Part shown: positions 2,533 through 32,379 of the stretch, piece after piece
Position numbering within the stretch: position 1 is the stretch's first letter
How the letters are laid out: every line of letters starts with the position of its first letter
From: an uncultured Magnetospirillum sp.
Lineage (GTDB): Bacteria > Pseudomonadota > Alphaproteobacteria > Rhodospirillales > Magnetospirillaceae
DNA: 59,414 bases
Assembly: GCF_903853455.1 (NCBI RefSeq)
Contig: NZ_CAINTR010000155.1
Coordinates: forward strand, 1 to 59,414
Direction of reading: 5' to 3'
Position numbers and translations under genes: made by a program
The notes under the pieces: model-generated
What the model saw: the letters and a program-made list of their open reading frames with translations, nothing else
Databases searched by the model: none
What the model was told of the DNA's origin: nothing

Positions 2533-2949
2533 TCATGACCCGGCGTCGAGCGCCTTGACGTGGCCAGCCTTGGCGTAGGACAGGATCTTTTGATCGGCCG
2601 TAACCAGGAGCGCATCCAGGTGACGCGCCGTCGCGATGATGATGCGGTCGGCCGGATCACCATGGGGGTCCGCCGGAAGGCTGTTGCTCCCGACGGCGAC
2701 CGCAATCGACAGCGGGTGAACAGAGAATCCCGGCCGCGCGAGGTGAGACTCCAGCCATTCACCCAGGTCACGGGACAAGGACAGCCTGCCCCGGGCGACA
2801 AGCATCGAAATCTCCCACAGGGTAATCGCGGAGAGAACGGCGCCATCACCCCGGGCCGCCGCCTCGATCCCGATCCGCGCGTCGCGCCCAAGTCTTGGAT
2901 CGGCATTGAGGAACCAAATCCAGCTATGGGTATCGAGAACGACGATCAT
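2533..2949 (-). CDS. vapC: VapC-family PIN-domain toxin
   Basis: Small PIN-domain ribonuclease of 138 residues, expected to cleave RNA when released from its antitoxin. The first acidic residue is in VVLDTHSWIWFLN (residues 2-14), a conserved acidic centre in ITLWEISML, and the C-terminal acidic part in HGDPADRIIIATARHLDALLVTAD, the usual PIN metal-binding pattern. The ATG at 2949 overlaps the TGA of the upstream antitoxin gene (ATGA), so the pair is translationally coupled. Length and motifs match the subgroup paired with Phd/YefM-type antitoxins. Confidence 0.9.
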   Translation of the reverse strand: MIVVLDTHSWIWFLNADPRLGRDARIGIEAAARGDGAVLSAITLWEISMLVARGRLSLSRDLGEWLESHLARPGFSVHPLSIAVAVGSNSLPADPHGDPADRIIIATARHLDALLVTADQKILSYAKAGHVKALDAGS

Positions 2950-3176
2950 CTGTCGGCGTCCCACGCCTCGCCGGTCGAGAGGAGGTCGTCATCCTCGGCG
3001 TAGGACATGCTCCCCTTGGCGATGCCGTAACTGCTCCCTGTTTCAGCGGGGATGGGGACGACACGCGCCACCGGCTTGCCACGCTTGGTGACCGTCACGG
3101 GCTCACGCGTCTTCTTTACCTCGTCGAGAATGTGCAGGCACTTCGCTTTGAATTCCCCGGCAGCGATGACACTCAC
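2946..3176 (-). CDS. vapB: Phd/YefM-type antitoxin of VapBC
   Basis: Antitoxin of about 76 residues: an N-terminal AbrB/Phd-like DNA-binding fold (VSVIAAGEFKAKCLHILDEV...REPVTVTKRGKPVARVVPI), then a short acidic toxin-wrapping tail (MSYAEDDDLLSTGEAWDADR). The GTG at 3176 is chosen because an excellent GAGGAGGG ribosome site lies just upstream. An ATG 54 bases further upstream is possible but would place the operator palindrome inside the coding region. It probably represses its own promoter through the 18-bp palindrome at 3194-3211. Confidence 0.85.
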   Translation of the reverse strand: MSVIAAGEFKAKCLHILDEVKKTREPVTVTKRGKPVARVVPIPAETGSSYGIAKGSMSYAEDDDLLSTGEAWDADR

Positions 3177-3193
3177 GGCACCCTCCTCGCTTG

Positions 3194-3211
3194 TGACCAT
3201 AAATATGGTCA
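3194..3211. promoter_or_regulatory. Palindromic operator candidate of vapBC
   Basis: Perfect inverted repeat TGACCATA-aa-TATGGTCA, 17 bases before the chosen vapB start and inside an AT-rich patch that could hold the promoter -10. The position fits autoregulation by the VapB-VapC complex. Binding is inferred from position and symmetry only. Confidence 0.55.
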
Positions 3212-3246
3212 TGGAACCGGGCTGGCGCAAGAAGATCGAGAGGGGG

Positions 3247-5361
<2,115 letters not shown>

Positions 5362-22678: not shown

Positions 22679-22721
22679 AACCCCCTCCCTCGCGGCCAGG
22701 GGTTCGCGATAAGTGTGGAGG
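22679..22721. repeat. Inverted repeat, left copy (flanks the Hxs region)
   Basis: Starts 31 bases after groEL. The core 22694-22721 (28 bases, beginning GGCCAGGGGTTCGCGATAAG) is identical to the reverse complement of 25886-25913, and the outer AACCCCCTCCC (22679-22689) matches 25919-25929 inverted. Each copy sits shortly after the stop codon of an unrelated gene on its own strand (groEL here, a histidine kinase at the other end). It may be a dispersed 3'-UTR repeat or the boundary of a mobile segment. Confidence 0.8.
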
Positions 22722-22770
22722 GGCGCTCGGTCGAGCATCACTTCATAAGGGGTTGAAAGAACAACCATTT

Positions 22771-22815
22771 ATGCCGGGCGTGGTCGAAAGGCCCCGCCCG
22801 GCATTCTTTTTTGTT
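22771..22815 (+). terminator. Rho-independent terminator of groESL
   Basis: Ten-bp stem ATGCCGGGCG (22771-22780) / CGCCCGGCAT (22795-22804) with a 14-base loop, followed by a T-rich tract. It ends the groESL transcript before the hxs genes. Confidence 0.88.
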
Positions 22816-22848
22816 CTTTTTCTCTCAATATGAGACATGGCCCATTTG

Positions 22849-22935: not shown

Positions 22936-23253
22936 ATGGACAAGGACAAGATGAAGGCCCAGTTGTCGACCACTGCACTGGGAATCGCTGAGAAGTGTGT
23001 CGTCGGCGCTCTGGCCGCCACGGGCATCACCACCATGGTCGCAACGGACGCCAACGCCACGACGTCCGCCCTCACCGAGGCAGCCGTCGCCGCCGCCTCG
23101 AGTGTCATCGCCGCCGCGCCATCGTCCGAAGGGGCGATACTGCTCGACATCATGCGGCGCGACCCGGCCACCGGCGTCATGGTGGCGGATCACTATTCTC
23201 ATGCCTCCCACGCTTCCCACGAGTCGCACTCCTCGCACTATTCGTCGCGCTGA
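22936..23253 (+). CDS. hxsA: His-Xaa-Ser repeat precursor peptide (HxsA-like)
   Basis: A 105-residue protein whose C-terminus is six consecutive His-Xaa-Ser triplets (HYS HAS HAS HES HSS HYS, residues 86-103) before a final Ser-Arg. This is the defining feature of HxsA, the presumed substrate of the Hxs radical-SAM maturation system. The N-terminal part has a hydrophobic stretch (CVVGALAATGITTMVATDANATT) that could be a membrane or leader segment. The ATG at 22936 has a strong AAGGGGGA site. hxsD starts five bases after the stop and hxsB follows, so the substrate and its likely enzymes are one operon. The modification itself is unknown. Confidence 0.85.
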   Translation: MDKDKMKAQLSTTALGIAEKCVVGALAATGITTMVATDANATTSALTEAAVAAASSVIAAAPSSEGAILLDIMRRDPATGVMVADHYSHASHASHESHSSHYSSR

Positions 23254-23258
23254 TCGCC

Positions 23259-23609
23259 GTGGTTTTTCCGAGCCGTGCCGGGGTCGTCGTAGATGAGCGG
23301 GGCACCACCGTCGTCATCGCTTTCGACCCCGGACTGTATCCAGAGGACGTGGCGCTGAAGGCGGCCTATTGGCTGGGCGAACATTGCCACGTCCATATCG
23401 GGCGAGGTCAAGAGGGCGGGCTGGTCGCGGAGATCCGCACCAAGGACGGGTGTGAAGGTCCTGAACTGACCGCCGCGTGCGGGGAGTTCTGTAACGCCCT
23501 CATCGACTTCGCTCTGCGCGCTCGCATCGCTGAAGAAACAAAGGGAACGCAGGAAGCTCTCTTGCAGCGCGCCTTTGTCCAACTTTTGCCAAGGGCGGCA
23601 GGTGGCTGA
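23259..23609 (+). CDS. hxsD: His-Xaa-Ser system protein HxsD
   Basis: About 116 residues. The conserved core (YPEDVALKAAYWLGEHCHVHI) and the C-terminal motif FCNALIDFALRARIAEETKGTQEALLQRAF match the LLNDYxLRE-type signature of HxsD, a small partner found with the two radical-SAM enzymes HxsB and HxsC. The start is uncertain: GTG at 23259 lies just after the hxsA stop but has a poor ribosome site, so translation probably depends on coupling to hxsA. Its 3' end overlaps hxsB by eight bases. Confidence 0.78.
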   Translation: MVFPSRAGVVVDERGTTVVIAFDPGLYPEDVALKAAYWLGEHCHVHIGRGQEGGLVAEIRTKDGCEGPELTAACGEFCNALIDFALRARIAEETKGTQEALLQRAFVQLLPRAAGG

Positions 23610-25098
23610 CACCCGCTTCAAGGGACGGGACGCCTACGTCGAGGCCGGTCCCTACCGCCTGATGCCGTTCCGCTTCGAACGACTCGACGCTGAACGCGTC
23701 CTGATGACGCATTCGGGCGGCGAATTCGCCATCCTCAAGCGGGCCGTCTTCGAGGACTTCCTCGCGGGAGCGCTCGCAGTCGGCTCTTCGGAGCATCTCG
23801 ACCTGAAATCCCGCTCCTTCCTGACGCACGGTCCCGACGCCGCGTCGCTTCGTGCGTTGGCCTCGCAGTGGCGGACCAAGAAGGCGTTCTTGGAGGGTGG
23901 TCCGAAGCTTCACATCTTCGTGCCGACGCTTCGCTGCAACCAAAGCTGCGGCTACTGCCAGGTCTCCCGCGCCGACGTATCGACCACGGGCGTGGACATG
24001 ACACGCGAAGCCGCCTCCCGCGCCATCGACCTCATGCTGAAGGCGCCGGCGACGACACTCACCATGGAGTTCCAAGGCGGTGAGCCGCTGCTCGCCTTCG
24101 ACACGGTGCGCTGGATGGTCGAGGCCGCCGCCGAACGCTCCGTCGGAACCGGTAAAAACCTGCGCTATGTCATTTGCACCAATCTGACACTGCTGACCGA
24201 CGAGCACATCGCCTTCTTCAAGGAGCACGACGTCGCCATCTCGACGTCGCTGGACGGGCCCGCCGATCTCCACGACCGCAACCGCCCCCTGACGGGCTCG
24301 GCGGCCCACGCCATTGTCGTCGCCAACATCCGGCACTGCCATGAGGCGCTGGGCCCGGGCAGCGTGTCGGCGCTGATGACGACCACCAAGCACAGCCTCG
24401 GACAGGTGCGGGAGATCATCGACGAATACGTCGCGCTCGGCCTGAACTCGATCTTCCTGCGCGAGCTCAATCCCTACGGCTTCGCGACCAAGTCGGCCAA
24501 GGCCGTCGGCTACGACACAGCCGAGTTCGCCGCCTTCTACAAAGAGGCGCTGGCGCACATTCTCGACCTGAACCGCCGCGGCGTTCCCATGGTCGAAGGT
24601 TACGCCTCCATCCTGCTGCGGAAGATATTGACGCCGTTCGGGGTCGGGTTCATCGATCTCCAATCACCCACCGGCGAAGGCTTCGGGGGCGTTCTCTACA
24701 ACCACGACGGCGGCGTCTACGCCTCCGACGAGGCCCGCATGTTGGCCGAGATGGGCGACGAGACCTTCCGGCTCGGCACCGTGTCGGACACCTACATCGA
24801 CCTGATGACCGGCAAGACGATGCAGCTTCTAGCCGCCGCCGGTGTCGCGGAATCGCTGCCGGGCTGCTCGGACTGCGCCTACGTTCCCTACTGCGGCGCA
24901 GACCCCATTCGGCACTACCGCACCCAAGGTGACCTTGTCGGGCATCGCCCGACCAGCGGGTTCTGCCGAAAGCAGAAGGCGATCTTCGCCACCCTGTTCG
25001 ATCTGCTGGACGGAGCCGACAAGGAGACGATGGACATTCTACTGGGGTGGCTGAACATCGGAAATGTCTGTCTGCCGAGGCCGCAATGGCTGTTGTGA
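23602..25098 (+). CDS. hxsB: His-Xaa-Ser system radical SAM maturase HxsB
   Basis: A 498-residue radical SAM enzyme. The [4Fe-4S]/SAM motif is RCNQSCGYCQ (Cys 112, 116, 119), followed by FQGGEPLL (158-165), ISTSLDGP and the HxsB-typical stretches IFLRELNPYGFA, LQSPTGEGF, ASDEARMLAEMGD. The C-terminal cysteines 422, 425, 431 and 455 (GCSDCAYVPYCGADPIRHY...FC) probably hold auxiliary clusters. The GTG start at 23602 has an AAGGGCGG site and overlaps hxsD. The last ~15 residues (NIGNVCLPRPQWLL) run into the antisense transposase-like fragment and are probably not original. The usual partner radical SAM protein HxsC is absent. Confidence 0.92.
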   Translation: MADTRFKGRDAYVEAGPYRLMPFRFERLDAERVLMTHSGGEFAILKRAVFEDFLAGALAVGSSEHLDLKSRSFLTHGPDAASLRALASQWRTKKAFLEGGPKLHIFVPTLRCNQSCGYCQVSRADVSTTGVDMTREAASRAIDLMLKAPATTLTMEFQGGEPLLAFDTVRWMVEAAAERSVGTGKNLRYVICTNLTLLTDEHIAFFKEHDVAISTSLDGPADLHDRNRPLTGSAAHAIVVANIRHCHEALGPGSVSALMTTTKHSLGQVREIIDEYVALGLNSIFLRELNPYGFATKSAKAVGYDTAEFAAFYKEALAHILDLNRRGVPMVEGYASILLRKILTPFGVGFIDLQSPTGEGFGGVLYNHDGGVYASDEARMLAEMGDETFRLGTVSDTYIDLMTGKTMQLLAAAGVAESLPGCSDCAYVPYCGADPIRHYRTQGDLVGHRPTSGFCRKQKAIFATLFDLLDGADKETMDILLGWLNIGNVCLPRPQWLL

Positions 25099-25480
25099 TG
25101 GTCGCCCAAGGGCGCTTCCCCCTTCCGTTCGAGTCGGTGATCCGTTCCAGCTCCTCCCGGATGCCTGCATTGCTCTTGATCGACGACTTCTGCCCGCACT
25201 TCGTGCACAACAGGCCTTGATGCGCATGCCGTCCGGTGAGAGCGAGCCGATAGCCGTCCCCACCTGTCTTGGATGGGCCACGCGGCACCTGGGCCAGCGG
25301 CTCGACGCCGAAGTTATCGCAGTTGATGTCCCGGCAGAAGTTCGACTGGATGCCGCCGTCCGCAGGCGGCACGCGCGGCCCGCCAGGGTTCCTCCTGACG
25401 TAGGGGCGCTTCGGTGCCGGCGGCTTCGGAGGCTGGTATGGGATGATGTCTGTGGAGGATGAATCGTCGGGCATGGCCAA
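25099..25480 (-). pseudogene. Truncated transposase-like zinc-ribbon protein
   Basis: The antisense frame starts at the ATG at 25480 and encodes a Pro-rich leader, then a zinc-ribbon-like unit (FCRDINCDNFGVEP...LLCTKCGQKSSIKSNAGIREELERI) resembling the N-terminal DNA-binding part of some large transposases. Only about 110-125 plausible residues remain. Past about 25100 the frame runs antisense through hxsB and is no longer convincing, so the gene lacks any catalytic domain. The family call rests on recollection of the zinc-ribbon pattern and is tentative. Its position directly after hxsB suggests that insertion and deletion here removed the rest of the hxs operon. Confidence 0.5.
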
Positions 25481-25885
25481 TGCTCACAGGCAGTGTTCTG
25501 TTTATGTTCTTACCACATCAAGGAGACGGGAGCAATGGAAGGATCGTCCGCCCAGCCCCGCCAGTCAACGAGCCCCGGCGCGAAAGAGGAACACATGGAG
25601 AACGCCCATCGGGGCCTTTGGTTCGTCCTTGCTCGCGGGTATAATCGGACTGGACTCCAAGAGATCGGTTGAATAGAATTCCAAATAACTTCACGCGATG
25701 GCCCCATGATTTGGGCGTCGCGGCAGTCATTACCAAAACGAGAATATAGTGCTCGCGATAGTCCAACGAAGATTTCTTCGGGGGCCGCTTTCGATTCCGC
25801 CTACTTCAAGATCGCGCGGCAACGCATTGACGGGCCGATGCTATTTGCCCCCGGAAATGGGAAGGCCCCCCACCGAAATGAGGGA
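25481..25885. other. Gene-poor stretch, no convincing coding region
   Basis: Between the transposase-like fragment and the right-hand inverted repeat the sequence is AT-richer than its surroundings. All frames give short peptides without recognisable domains, and I find no remnant of hxsC. A plausible promoter-like patch lies near 25667-25685 (GGTTGAATAGAATTCC). It looks like the scar of an insertion or deletion. Confidence 0.4.
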
Positions 25886-25929
25886 CCTCCACACTTATCG
25901 CGAACCCCTGGCCCTCGCGGGAGGGGGTT
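25886..25929. repeat. Inverted repeat, right copy (flanks the Hxs region)
   Basis: Reverse-complement copy of 22679-22721: a 28-base identical core at 25886-25913 plus the outer GGGAGGGGGTT at 25919-25929, with a 4- versus 5-base difference between the two parts. On the minus strand it begins 19 bases after the stop codon of the histidine kinase at 25949, mirroring the position of the left copy after groEL. Confidence 0.8.
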
Positions 25930-25948: not shown

Positions 25949-28257
25949 TTAGGCCCGGAGGCTTTCCACCAGTGCCGCCGCCCGGACGGATTTGGGGAAG
26001 CGCAGGTTGAAGGTGGTGCCCTTGCCGGGCTCGCTGGCCACGTCGACCTGACCGTTCAGCGAACTGGTGACCACGTTGAACACGATGTGCAGCCCCAGGC
26101 CGGAGCCGCCGTTGCTGCGCCGGGTGGTGAAGAACGGATCGAAGATGCGGGGCAGGTTCTCGGCCGGAATGCCCTTGCCGTCATCGGCGAAGCTGAGGAC
26201 CACGTCGTCGCCCAGATCCTTGACCGTGATGGTCAGGGTGCCGGCCTGATGGGTGTCGTCATAGGCGTGGACCAGGGAATTCATCACCAGATTGGTCAGC
26301 ACCTGCGACAGAACGCCGGGATAGGAGTTCATCTCGATGCCGTCGGGGCAGAACACCTCCACCGCCAGACGGTGCTTCCTGATGCTGGGGTTCAGGCTGT
26401 TGAGGATTTCCTCGATATAGGTTTTCAGGTCGAAGCGCCGGCGTTCGGCGCTGGTCTGGTCCACCGCCACCTGCTTGAAGCTTTGGATCAGCTCGGCGGC
26501 GCGGTTCATGTTGGCCAGCAACAGCCGCGCGGTTTCGGCGGCGGTGCCCAGGTAATCGAGGAAATCGTCCTCGGTCATGGCCTGCTCGCCGTAGAGCTTG
26601 CGCAGCTTCGCCGTTTCCGAGGCCAGGGTCGAGGCCCCGGTCAGACCGATGCCGACGGGCGTGTTGATCTCGTGGGCGACACCGGCCACCAGCCCACCCA
26701 GCGACGCCATCTTCTCCGCCTGGATCAGGCTTTGCTGCGCCTGTTGCAGATCGGCCAGGGCGGTCTCGGCGCGATTCTTGGCCCCCAGCAGTTCCTCCTC
26801 CATGCGCTTGCGCTCGCTGATGGGGATGATGGTGGTCAGCAGCGCCTTCTCCCCCTGGTAGACCAGCAGCCGGGCCGACATCAGCGCCCAGAACGGCGCC
26901 CCGCCCACGCCATGGACCTGGGCCTCGAACTCGTTGACCGCCCCGTGCAGGTCGAGCTGCTGCAACAACCGGTCGCGGTCCTGGGGGCTGAGATGGTCCT
27001 CGGCGGCGTCGTGGTCGCCACGCAGCCCCAGCAGGCGCGCCGCCGGCTGGTTGACATGCAGCAGGGCGTGGTCCGACAACCGCGACACGGTCAGCGGGGT
27101 GGGAATGGCCTCCAGCAGGTCGCGCTGGGCCTCGGCGGCGCGGGTCTGGGCCGCCAGTTCCTCGCGGCGGAGGCCTTCGGCCTGAAGGCGCTCCAGCATG
27201 GTGTTGAACGCCCCCACCAGCCGGCCGATCTCGTCGGTGCTGTCCCATTGGGCGCGCAGGTCGTAATCGTTGGTCTGCCGTACCGTCTCGGCCACCTCGG
27301 CCAGACGGCCGATGGGAACGGCGATGCGCCGCGCCACCAGCAGCACCAGGACCAGAATCACCGCCAGCAAGGCCCCGGCCAGCCCGAAATGCTCCCACAT
27401 GCGGTGGAAGAAGCCATCGATGCGCAGATCCAGCAGCCGGTTCAATTCGCGGCTGGTCTGCACCCAGACGGCCTGGGTCGCCCGCAACGACGCATCAATG
27501 GCCTGCGTCACCGGCTCGGCGTCGATGGTCCCGCTCTGGTCGATGATGCTGGCCCGCAGCGAGGTCACCAGACCGGACAACGCCCGGTCCAGAACGGCGA
27601 AGCCGGGCGACAGGGCGGCTTGCAGCGAACCGTCGGGATTGCCGTTGTAGCCGGCCTGGCGGTCGCCCTCGATGCCCTTGATGACGTTGGCCAGCCGCCC
27701 TTCCAGGATCAAGAACTCGGTGCGGTCGTCGGCGGACAGGCCGCCGTCGCGAGCGGCATGATGAGCCTGGGCGCGGGCCTGCACCAGAAGCTCGACCAGT
27801 TCCGGGAACCGCAGCAGGACCAGCGACATGGAATAGTAGGAGTCCAGGTCGGGATCGAGAATCAGGTTGGACTGGTCGCCGATCTTGGAAATCAGCGTCC
27901 GCGCGCCGGCCACCGCCTTCAGGGCGGCGTCGTCCGCCAGGGCGGGATGCACCGCCACCAGGGCGCGGCTGCTCTCCAGCAGCTCGTCCAGCTCGGCGCG
28001 GCTGGACATGCCGGGACCGTAAACCTCCTCGGCCCGTTGCAGGGCGGCAAGCTGGGGCTCCGCCACCACCCCCCGCTCGGCGATGGCGAACAAGGTGTCG
28101 CGCGACGCGTCGATATAGGCGTTGCCGGCCACTTCCTTGCGGGCGAAGTTGATGGAGATGTATTTCTCCTCGGCCAGGGAGAAGCCGAGAAAGACCACCG
28201 CGATCATGTCGAGGGCGTAGATCAGCAGCAGCTTGCCGGACACACTGATGCGCGAGA

Positions 28258-28261
<4 letters not shown>
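25949..28261 (-). CDS. Membrane sensor histidine kinase with HAMP and PAS-like domains
   Basis: A 770-residue kinase. Membrane helix about 10-30, long helical periplasmic domain, second helix about 295-318 (GLAGALLAVILVLVLLVARR), HAMP, a PAS-like segment (about 385-490), then HisKA with the phospho-accepting His in GGLVAGVAHEINTPVGIG and a HATPase domain (NLVMNSLVHAY, FADDGKGIP, GGSGLGLHIVFN). The ATG overlaps the TGA of the hybrid kinase upstream (ATGA), so the two are co-translated and probably part of one phosphorelay. Reading upstream of 28261 merely shadows that gene. The output regulator is not evident. Confidence 0.9.
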
Positions 28262-31203
<2,942 letters not shown>

Positions 31204-31473
31204 TCTGCGACACTCCCCAAAAGCTCGCATCGGTACGGTCAAATTATAGGCGATTGATTGTTCATGCTTATTTTAAAGGCATCCGGCGCGACGGGGCAAG
31301 ACGTCAACGCCGACCGGCCGGCCATCCAAACTTTTGGCCTGACCATCCCGGTCATGTGGAAATCGCCGCTGTTTTCCGCAAGATCGCCATTGCCGCAAGG
31401 CCGGCCTTCTCGGATGGGACGGGATTGGCTAAGCTAGGCGCCTCAATTCCGGCCAGACCAGGGGGTTCCCACC

Positions 31474-31959
31474 ATGCCGTCCTTCGACATCGTCTCCAAG
31501 ACCGACCTCGCCGAGGTGGACAACGCCCTGGCCGGCATCACCCGCGAAGTGGCGCAGCGCTTCGACTTCAAGGGCTCCAAATGCTCGGTCGAGCGCAAGG
31601 AGCAGATCATCACGGTGCTGGCCGACGACGACGCCAAGCTGAAGCAGATGCACGAGTTGCTGAAGGTTCACTTCACCCGCCGCAACGTCGATCCCAAGGC
31701 GCTGGACTACAAGACGGTGGAAAAGGCCTCCGGCAATTCGGTCCGCCAGCAGATCCGCATCAAGGACGGCATCGAGAAGGAATTGGCCAAGACCCTGGTC
31801 AAGGACATCAAGGACAGCAAGATCAAGGTTCAGGTCTCGATCCAGGGCGACGAGTTGCGCGTCACCGGCAAGAAGCGCGACGAGTTGCAGGAAACCATCG
31901 CCATGCTGCGCAAACTCGACGTCGATCAGCCGCTTCAGTACATCAATTTCCGCGACTGA
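31474..31959 (+). CDS. yajQ: YajQ-family nucleotide-binding protein
   Basis: A 161-residue protein starting MPSFDIVSKTDLAEVDNALAGITREVAQRFDFKGSKC, with the second repeat GNSVRQQIRIKDGIEKELAKTLVKDIKDSKIKVQVSIQGDELRVTGKKRDELQ. Members (two ferredoxin-like domains) bind nucleotides, and in Xanthomonas and Pseudomonas act as cyclic-di-GMP effectors. The surrounding HD-GYP and PilZ genes fit such a role, but this is inference. It is divergent from the hybrid kinase, with a 270-bp gap. Confidence 0.95.
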   Translation: MPSFDIVSKTDLAEVDNALAGITREVAQRFDFKGSKCSVERKEQIITVLADDDAKLKQMHELLKVHFTRRNVDPKALDYKTVEKASGNSVRQQIRIKDGIEKELAKTLVKDIKDSKIKVQVSIQGDELRVTGKKRDELQETIAMLRKLDVDQPLQYINFRD

Positions 31960-31995
31960 CCCCACCAGCCATGCGCCGGCACAAGGCAGCCATGC

Positions 31996-32078
31996 TGCTG
32001 CGGCGCAGCAAATCCCCCATGAAACGGCCTTGGATCAATGACTTCGTAAGAAGTTTGGGGTTATGCTGCATTGCATCA
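31996..32078. promoter_or_regulatory. Two PhaR-like palindromes
   Basis: TGCTGC-ggc-GCAGCA (31996-32010) is a perfect palindrome with the CTGC-N3-GCAG pattern known for PhaR operators in Rhodobacter. TGCTGC-att-GCATCA (32064-32078) is a second match with one mismatch. They lie 53 bases apart, upstream of a 70-residue gene at 32167. PhaR normally controls phasin and polyhydroxybutyrate genes, none of which is seen here, so the assignment is tentative. Confidence 0.35.
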
Positions 32079-32094
32079 TCAAGGCGTCGGCCTT

Positions 32095-32137
32095 TCCGGC
32101 GCCGTGATGGCAAAGGGCGCGAAGGCGCCCCCTCAGG
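32095..32137. repeat. Possible remnant of the family 1/2 repeat core
   Basis: GGCAAAGGGCGC-gaa-GGCGCCC followed by CCTCAGG resembles the hairpin core and right end of the element at 19180-19300 (CCAAGGGCGC-ggag-GCGCCC ... CTGAGG). The rest of the element is not recognisable. It lies 30 bases upstream of the gene at 32167. Confidence 0.35.
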
Positions 32138-32166
32138 CAGAGGGGCATTTGAGTGTGGAGTCTGTT

Positions 32167-32379
32167 ATGAAACCGTCGTCCGGCCTTCGTTTCGTTCATA
32201 CCCGGCTGCTGTGCCAGGACGCACTCGCCACCGGCGAGTCCAAGCCCGCGGTCTGCGAGATCATCCGGGTCGCCGAGAATATCGTCTGGTACTCGGTCCT
32301 CGGCCGCAATGGCGCTCCCGTCAGCCGGGAGTGGTGCGAAACCTCCCGCTTCCCGGAAATCTGCGCCGAAGCCGCCTAG
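32167..32379 (+). CDS. Small conserved-looking protein, function unknown
   Basis: A 70-residue protein (MKPSSGLRFVHTRLLCQDALATGESKPAVCEIIRVAENIVWYSVLGRNGAPVSREWCETSRFPEICAEA) with a GGAG ribosome site at proper distance. Three cysteines, no signal peptide, no membrane segment. I do not recognise it. The compact alternation of hydrophobic and charged residues looks like a real folded protein. It is preceded by the PhaR-like palindromes and a repeat remnant, and converges on the HD-GYP gene. Confidence 0.55.
   Translation: MKPSSGLRFVHTRLLCQDALATGESKPAVCEIIRVAENIVWYSVLGRNGAPVSREWCETSRFPEICAEAA

Follow-up and report, generated by a model that had tools for sequence, protein, structure and literature searches.

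The DNA analysed here (the window, 59,414 nucleotides from an uncultured Magnetospirillum sp.) carries three hxs genes on the forward strand, with groEL as their upstream neighbour. Gene identities were assigned by the NCBI curated family cut-offs (TIGR03979 or NF038296 for HxsA, TIGR03978 for HxsB, TIGR03977 for HxsC and TIGR03976 for HxsD). The precursor peptide gene hxsA2 (22936 to 23253; NF038296, 54.5 bits, cut-off 48), hxsD (23259 to 23609; TIGR03976, 55.5 bits, cut-off 50) and hxsB (23602 to 25098; TIGR03978, 601.6 bits, cut-off 370), which encodes a radical SAM/SPASM maturase, are all over their cut-offs and in open reading frames, in agreement with a preliminary description of the locus. 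Both hxsD and hxsB have GTG starts, that of hxsD being read from the sequence. The C-terminal end of HxsA2 consists of six consecutive His-Xaa-Ser triplets (HYS-HAS-HAS-HES-HSS-HYS), all perfect as described. The genes had also been called overlapping, which holds for hxsD and hxsB only; hxsA2 stops at 23253 and the first usable start of hxsD is the GTG at 23259.

HxsB retains all of its cysteines, as had been noted, with the CxxxCxxC motif (C112, C116 and C119) and C422, C425, C431 and C455 invariant in an alignment of six sequences. The protein is complete. Its last residues, those after LLGWL, had been suspected of being replaced by foreign DNA, but the tail GWLNIGNVCLPRPQWLL aligns without gaps with GWLNPNRRCLPGAPWLS and GWLNPGRRFLPEATWQS from the two closest relatives, L031 and L064, respectively. 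The tail is therefore native, and a foreign HxsB tail is ruled out.

Relatives of HxsB were compared using the best 80 loci from named genomes out of at least 561 confirmed relatives. The closest among these 80 are L064, from an uncultured Rhodopila MAG (69% identity), and L031, from an uncultured proteobacterium MAG (65%), which group with the window protein at a support of 100/100 in a tree of 86 proteins; in other parts of the tree some long branches are flagged as unreliable. Both loci have the order hxsA2-hxsD-hxsB-hxsC, matching that of the window, and their precursors include six (L031) and five (L064) triplets. HxsA2 is the best precursor family for both, with 50.2 bits in L031 (over the cut-off of 48) and 43.0 bits in L064 (just under it). 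Their hxsC genes are complete (335 and 361 bits in L031 and L064, respectively, over the cut-off), whereas that of the window is a stub.

Remnants of hxsC and of a transposase gene

By the same cut-offs the window encodes the precursor, HxsD and HxsB of the Hxs system but no HxsC. A search of the whole genome assembly (223 contigs, 5.18 Mb, completeness rating 100%) with TIGR03977 gave nine matches, none over the cut-off; the best scored 44.5 bits as compared with 267.9, and the three highest-scoring proteins are assigned by their own family profiles to NirJ, MoaA and HpnH. An intact hxsC elsewhere in the genome, which would have made this an ordinary split system, is contradicted by this search, except for a gene that falls in an assembly gap. 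The same genome also encodes the radical SAM peptide maturase CbpB (TIGR04163, 718.6 bits; locus L010, G000:C64:12836-13933).

The statement that hxsC is missing was thus correct for a gene that a profile can recognise, but not for its first approximately 18 codons, which remain at 25086 to 25141 on the forward strand. The ATG of this stub (MAVVMVAQGRFPLPFESV...) at 25086 overlaps the end of hxsB by 13 nt, exactly as the hxsC start does in L031 and L064, and the corresponding L031 sequence is MAVVMVIYGRPTVQFGTV. Past the stop codon of hxsB, the window is identical in register to hxsC of L031 at 28 of 43 bases, a level reached at a single one of 15462 offsets of the L031 locus on both strands, namely the true site. 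The likeness to L064 is weaker (20/43), with 124 of 26890 offsets equally good. Past 25141 identity drops to 13/43 with L031 and 9/43 with L064 over the next 43 bases, and the open frame of the stub continues into foreign DNA as far as a stop at 25218-25220. The match to the HxsC profile starts only at residue 78-79 of HxsC in L031 and L064; hence the profile search is blind to the stub.

The foreign DNA includes a 5'-terminal portion of a transposase gene antisense to the hxs genes, with its 5' end at 25474 and running down to about 25132. The truncated antisense fragment reported before is therefore real, and comprises about 113 codons (25132 to 25474, reverse strand) of a gene of the 630-aa type, with 75% identity to residues 1-113 of the transposase L152 from a genome of the same family. 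Family searches with the fragment itself gave no match over any cut-off. The junction between hxsC and the transposase gene lies within 25132 to 25141 and is placed to this interval rather than to the exact base; the join, as assembled, would be a deletion junction. Instead of a functional transposase gene, the genome holds the remnant in the window and a separate related piece (residues 163-628) that borders one end of contig C130 (4.4 kb). The DNA before the latter is unrelated and by eye resembles part of an IS21-type gene. The match starts at about residue 163 rather than 114 and follows different DNA, so that the C130 piece is no continuation of the window fragment.

Element ends and the insertion site downstream of groEL

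The hxs genes and the transposase remnant lie between two terminal inverted repeats of 26 bp, at 22696 to 22721 (forward strand) and 25886 to 25911 (reverse strand), which match each other perfectly. They are flanked in turn by a 9-bp direct repeat, CCCTCGCGG, at 22687 to 22695 and 25912 to 25920. Leader DNA (25475 to 25885, reverse strand) similar to copies in three other genomes of the family (G001, G003 and G008) fills the interval between the right inverted repeat and the transposase start, and from that repeat to about 25132 the window resembles the L152 element (78% over 797 aligned positions). Searched as a 28-mer with up to 3 mismatches, the inverted repeat was found in two copies only in its own genome, at the ends of the unit, and the idea that it is a common genomic repeat was rejected.

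When the flanks are joined over one copy of CCCTCGCGG, they give AACCCCCTCCCTCGCGGGAGGGGGTT, which has the shape of the groEL terminator of the relative G046; the longer joined sequence, AACCCCCTCCCTCGCGGGAGGGGGTTTTCG, forms a terminator like that following groEL in this genome, the nearest member of the genus. The empty site was compared with this one relative, which has the same terminator stem and a different loop. Among eight genus relatives, only G046 shares post-groEL DNA with the window, its terminator sequence being different, and nothing adjoining groEL in the other seven matches the window. Terminal inverted repeats, a 9-bp target-site duplication and a clean empty site are thus all present, and from the repeats and the joined flanks it follows that the hxs genes lie inside a transposon-like unit within the groEL terminator. 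As read from the sequence, then, the hxs operon is enclosed by transposon-like element ends.

The next DNA of G046 that matches the window corresponds to 31464-32377. Between the element and this shared DNA, two large overlapping ORFs that by eye resemble histidine kinases occupy 25949-31242 on the reverse strand. They are absent at the G046 site, where weaker partial matches (68-70%) are present 14 kb further on, and may have entered the window by a further insertion or have been lost from G046.

A terminator-like hairpin with a U-run is located at 22771 to 22804 on the forward strand, between groEL and hxsA2. The stretch 22760-22830 has a z-score of -6.17, with none of 200 shuffles as stable, although the hairpin is absent from the list given by a simple consensus terminator scan. 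The left half of the interrupted old groEL terminator has no unusual fold (z -0.37). Read-through from groEL into the hxs genes was considered and rejected as unlikely, because the strong hairpin with its U-run separates groEL from hxsA2. A scan for the sigma-70 consensus recognised no promoter before hxsA2.

Proposed history of the locus and alternative explanations

These data are best explained by an Hxs operon carried in a transposon that suffered an internal deletion, with loss of the greater part of both hxsC and the transposase gene (probability about 0.88). An ordinary four-gene operon, hxsA2-hxsD-hxsB-hxsC, would have resided inside a transposon with 26-bp inverted repeats, oriented towards the transposase gene, and the element would have inserted into the groEL terminator, duplicating 9 bp. 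Before or after insertion, an internal deletion would have taken hxsC from about codon 19 onwards and, of the transposase gene, everything from about codon 114, the remnants being joined near 25132-25141. What is left would be a non-autonomous element that still encodes the precursor, the accessory protein and the first maturase intact but lacks the second maturase. Seen directly are the two inverted repeats and the direct repeat, the remnants of hxsC and of the transposase gene, and the complete operons of the relatives. A single deletion would account for the loss of both hxsC and the transposase, and the pathway is presumably incomplete now. The hxs genes likely moved as cargo, but an element already residing at this place could instead have picked up the operon. 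No complete transposon enclosing an entire hxs operon was seen, either among the best 80 of at least 561 hxs loci or among the copies in family genomes. Neither the inverted repeat, allowing up to 4 substitutions, nor the transposase was found in the L031 and L064 loci, and the window transposase gave no match in the same 80 hxs loci (tblastn, E 1e-3).

An import of the operon is suggested by its distribution in the genomes sampled, since the window's own genome is the only one with HxsB among 55 genomes of the family. In a class-level sample, HxsB is over its cut-off in six of 385 genomes, that of the window included. Of the seven further genomes of the class with a strong HxsB match, six encode HxsC; in the seventh, G144, HxsB is below its own cut-off.

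The preliminary description had proposed either a minimal one-enzyme version of the system or a recently broken pathway. A natural one-enzyme system was rejected on account of the stub and of the operons of L031 and L064, in which hxsC has the equivalent position and an identical 13-nt overlap; the favoured reading is a broken copy in which hxsC was cut after approximately 18 codons. The break itself is thereby upheld. That it was recent is consistent with an hxsB free of stops, in which 2 of 78 highly conserved columns are changed, both mildly (F189Y and V351I). The median is 1 in the 86 proteins, 58 of which have fewer deviations than the window, the columns having been picked from the same 86 proteins that were scored. 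Comparison of hxsB with L064 gave dN 0.24 and dS 1.43, and dS with L031 was not computable; dating of the deletion by dN/dS was therefore rejected. Judged by the conserved columns, hxsB has no clear excess of damage and would fit a recent break and continued use alike.

Continued use would mean that HxsA2, HxsD and HxsB were kept after the loss of HxsC and that HxsB alone modifies the precursor usefully, which is compatible with the deletion history. The three open genes, the mild changes in HxsB and the dN and dS values are in its favour, but dN/dS averages over the long time before the deletion, and the stub and the transposase remnant indicate that the present state arose by damage. Nor is the arrangement common in relatives: in 77 of the 80 loci (the best 80 of at least 561) an hxsC match adjoins hxsB downstream, that in L038 being short and weak owing to a contig end, and the three loci without a neighbouring hxsC (L056, L039 and L093) each lie at a contig end or beside mobile-looking genes. 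The contig of L056 stops inside hxsB, and in L039 hxsB is followed by an ORF that by eye resembles a transposase and then by the contig end. A working one-enzyme system is accordingly considered quite unlikely. Still less probable is an assembly artefact, in which hxsC was wrongly joined to the transposase gene and is in reality complete; the division of the genome into 223 contigs and the second transposase piece at the edge of C130 could point that way, but no HxsC over the cut-off is present in an assembly rated as 100% complete, and the C130 piece starts at the wrong residue and after other DNA. For a relocation of hxsC to another place in the genome no supporting point was found, and with the best TIGR03977 match so far below the cut-off this explanation is hardly credible.

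Possible damage to hxs loci was observed elsewhere. In L093, from a Rhodanobacteraceae MAG, an open hxsB without hxsC (2624-4159) has recombinase-like genes, assigned by eye, on both sides, and HxsC gave no match in this genome at E 1e-10; it is possibly a second case of damage by a mobile element. In L022/L024 (G195:C4, 63549-64944) hxsB is present in two overlapping frames, due to a frameshift, beside open hxsA and hxsC genes; here either hxsB rather than hxsC is the damaged gene, or the sequence contains an error.

With the deleted operon as the preferred reading, HxsB most likely performs at best its own step and the mature product is not made. That Hxs operons travel as cargo of IS-like transposons and that a deleted copy persists with HxsB alone still modifying, perhaps partially, is unlikely as a combined proposal. 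Were it true, the HxsA2-HxsD-HxsB set would offer a natural experiment for assigning the individual steps to the enzymes. Tempting as it looked, the locus can no longer be cited as an Hxs system with one enzyme, and in distinguishing minimal from truncated systems, the DNA ahead of the HxsC profile start should be checked for a stub.

Comparison with known systems

Sites like the inverted repeat (up to 3 mismatches of 22) were found in five other genomes among the 55 of the family. The repeat is followed by leader and transposase in G003 and G008 and by leader up to the contig edge in G001, whereas in G020, in G046 and at a second site in G003 the match is confined to the repeat. The left end of the element matches the other copies over the 26-28 bp of the repeat only. 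The G046 site (L153, G046:C34, near 15992) is a lone repeat with 2 mismatches over 28, with neighbours that include a DnaK-like gene (by eye), and its 17.7-kb contig includes no second repeat and no such transposase. A search for the exact inverted repeat in viral contigs and one for the transposon-end DNA in plasmids gave no match.

L152 (G003:C108) is an insertion sequence with a 630-aa transposase and the same inverted repeat and approximately 430-bp leader as in the window, its far end lying beyond its contig. Its protein matches IS1 (NF033558) weakly, over the N-terminal zinc-binding part, with 37 bits against a cut-off of 100, and is 630 aa long as compared with 199 positions of the IS1 profile; this relative, on which membership was scored, is thus below the cut-off of the IS1 family. 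It also matches a transposase family of a phage library with 31 bits. A 9-bp target duplication fits IS1.

The copy in G008 (L155, G008:C468), with repeat and leader as in the window and 84% DNA identity to it over 629 positions, is itself deleted, transposase residues about 63-380 being absent. Since this copy carries an internal deletion of its own, such deletions do happen in this element.

The Hxs system of HxsA, HxsB, HxsC and HxsD is that of Haft and Basu, as cited in PMC9062424, and the passages on it in PMC9062424, PMC8446631 and PMC6537148 give no function for its product. As compared with that system, the window has HxsA2, HxsD and HxsB over their cut-offs and HxsC cut to an 18-codon stub; as compared with L152, it has lost all but about 113 transposase codons and has hxs genes in addition. 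An Hxs operon within transposon ends would represent one possible route for the patchy spread of such systems.
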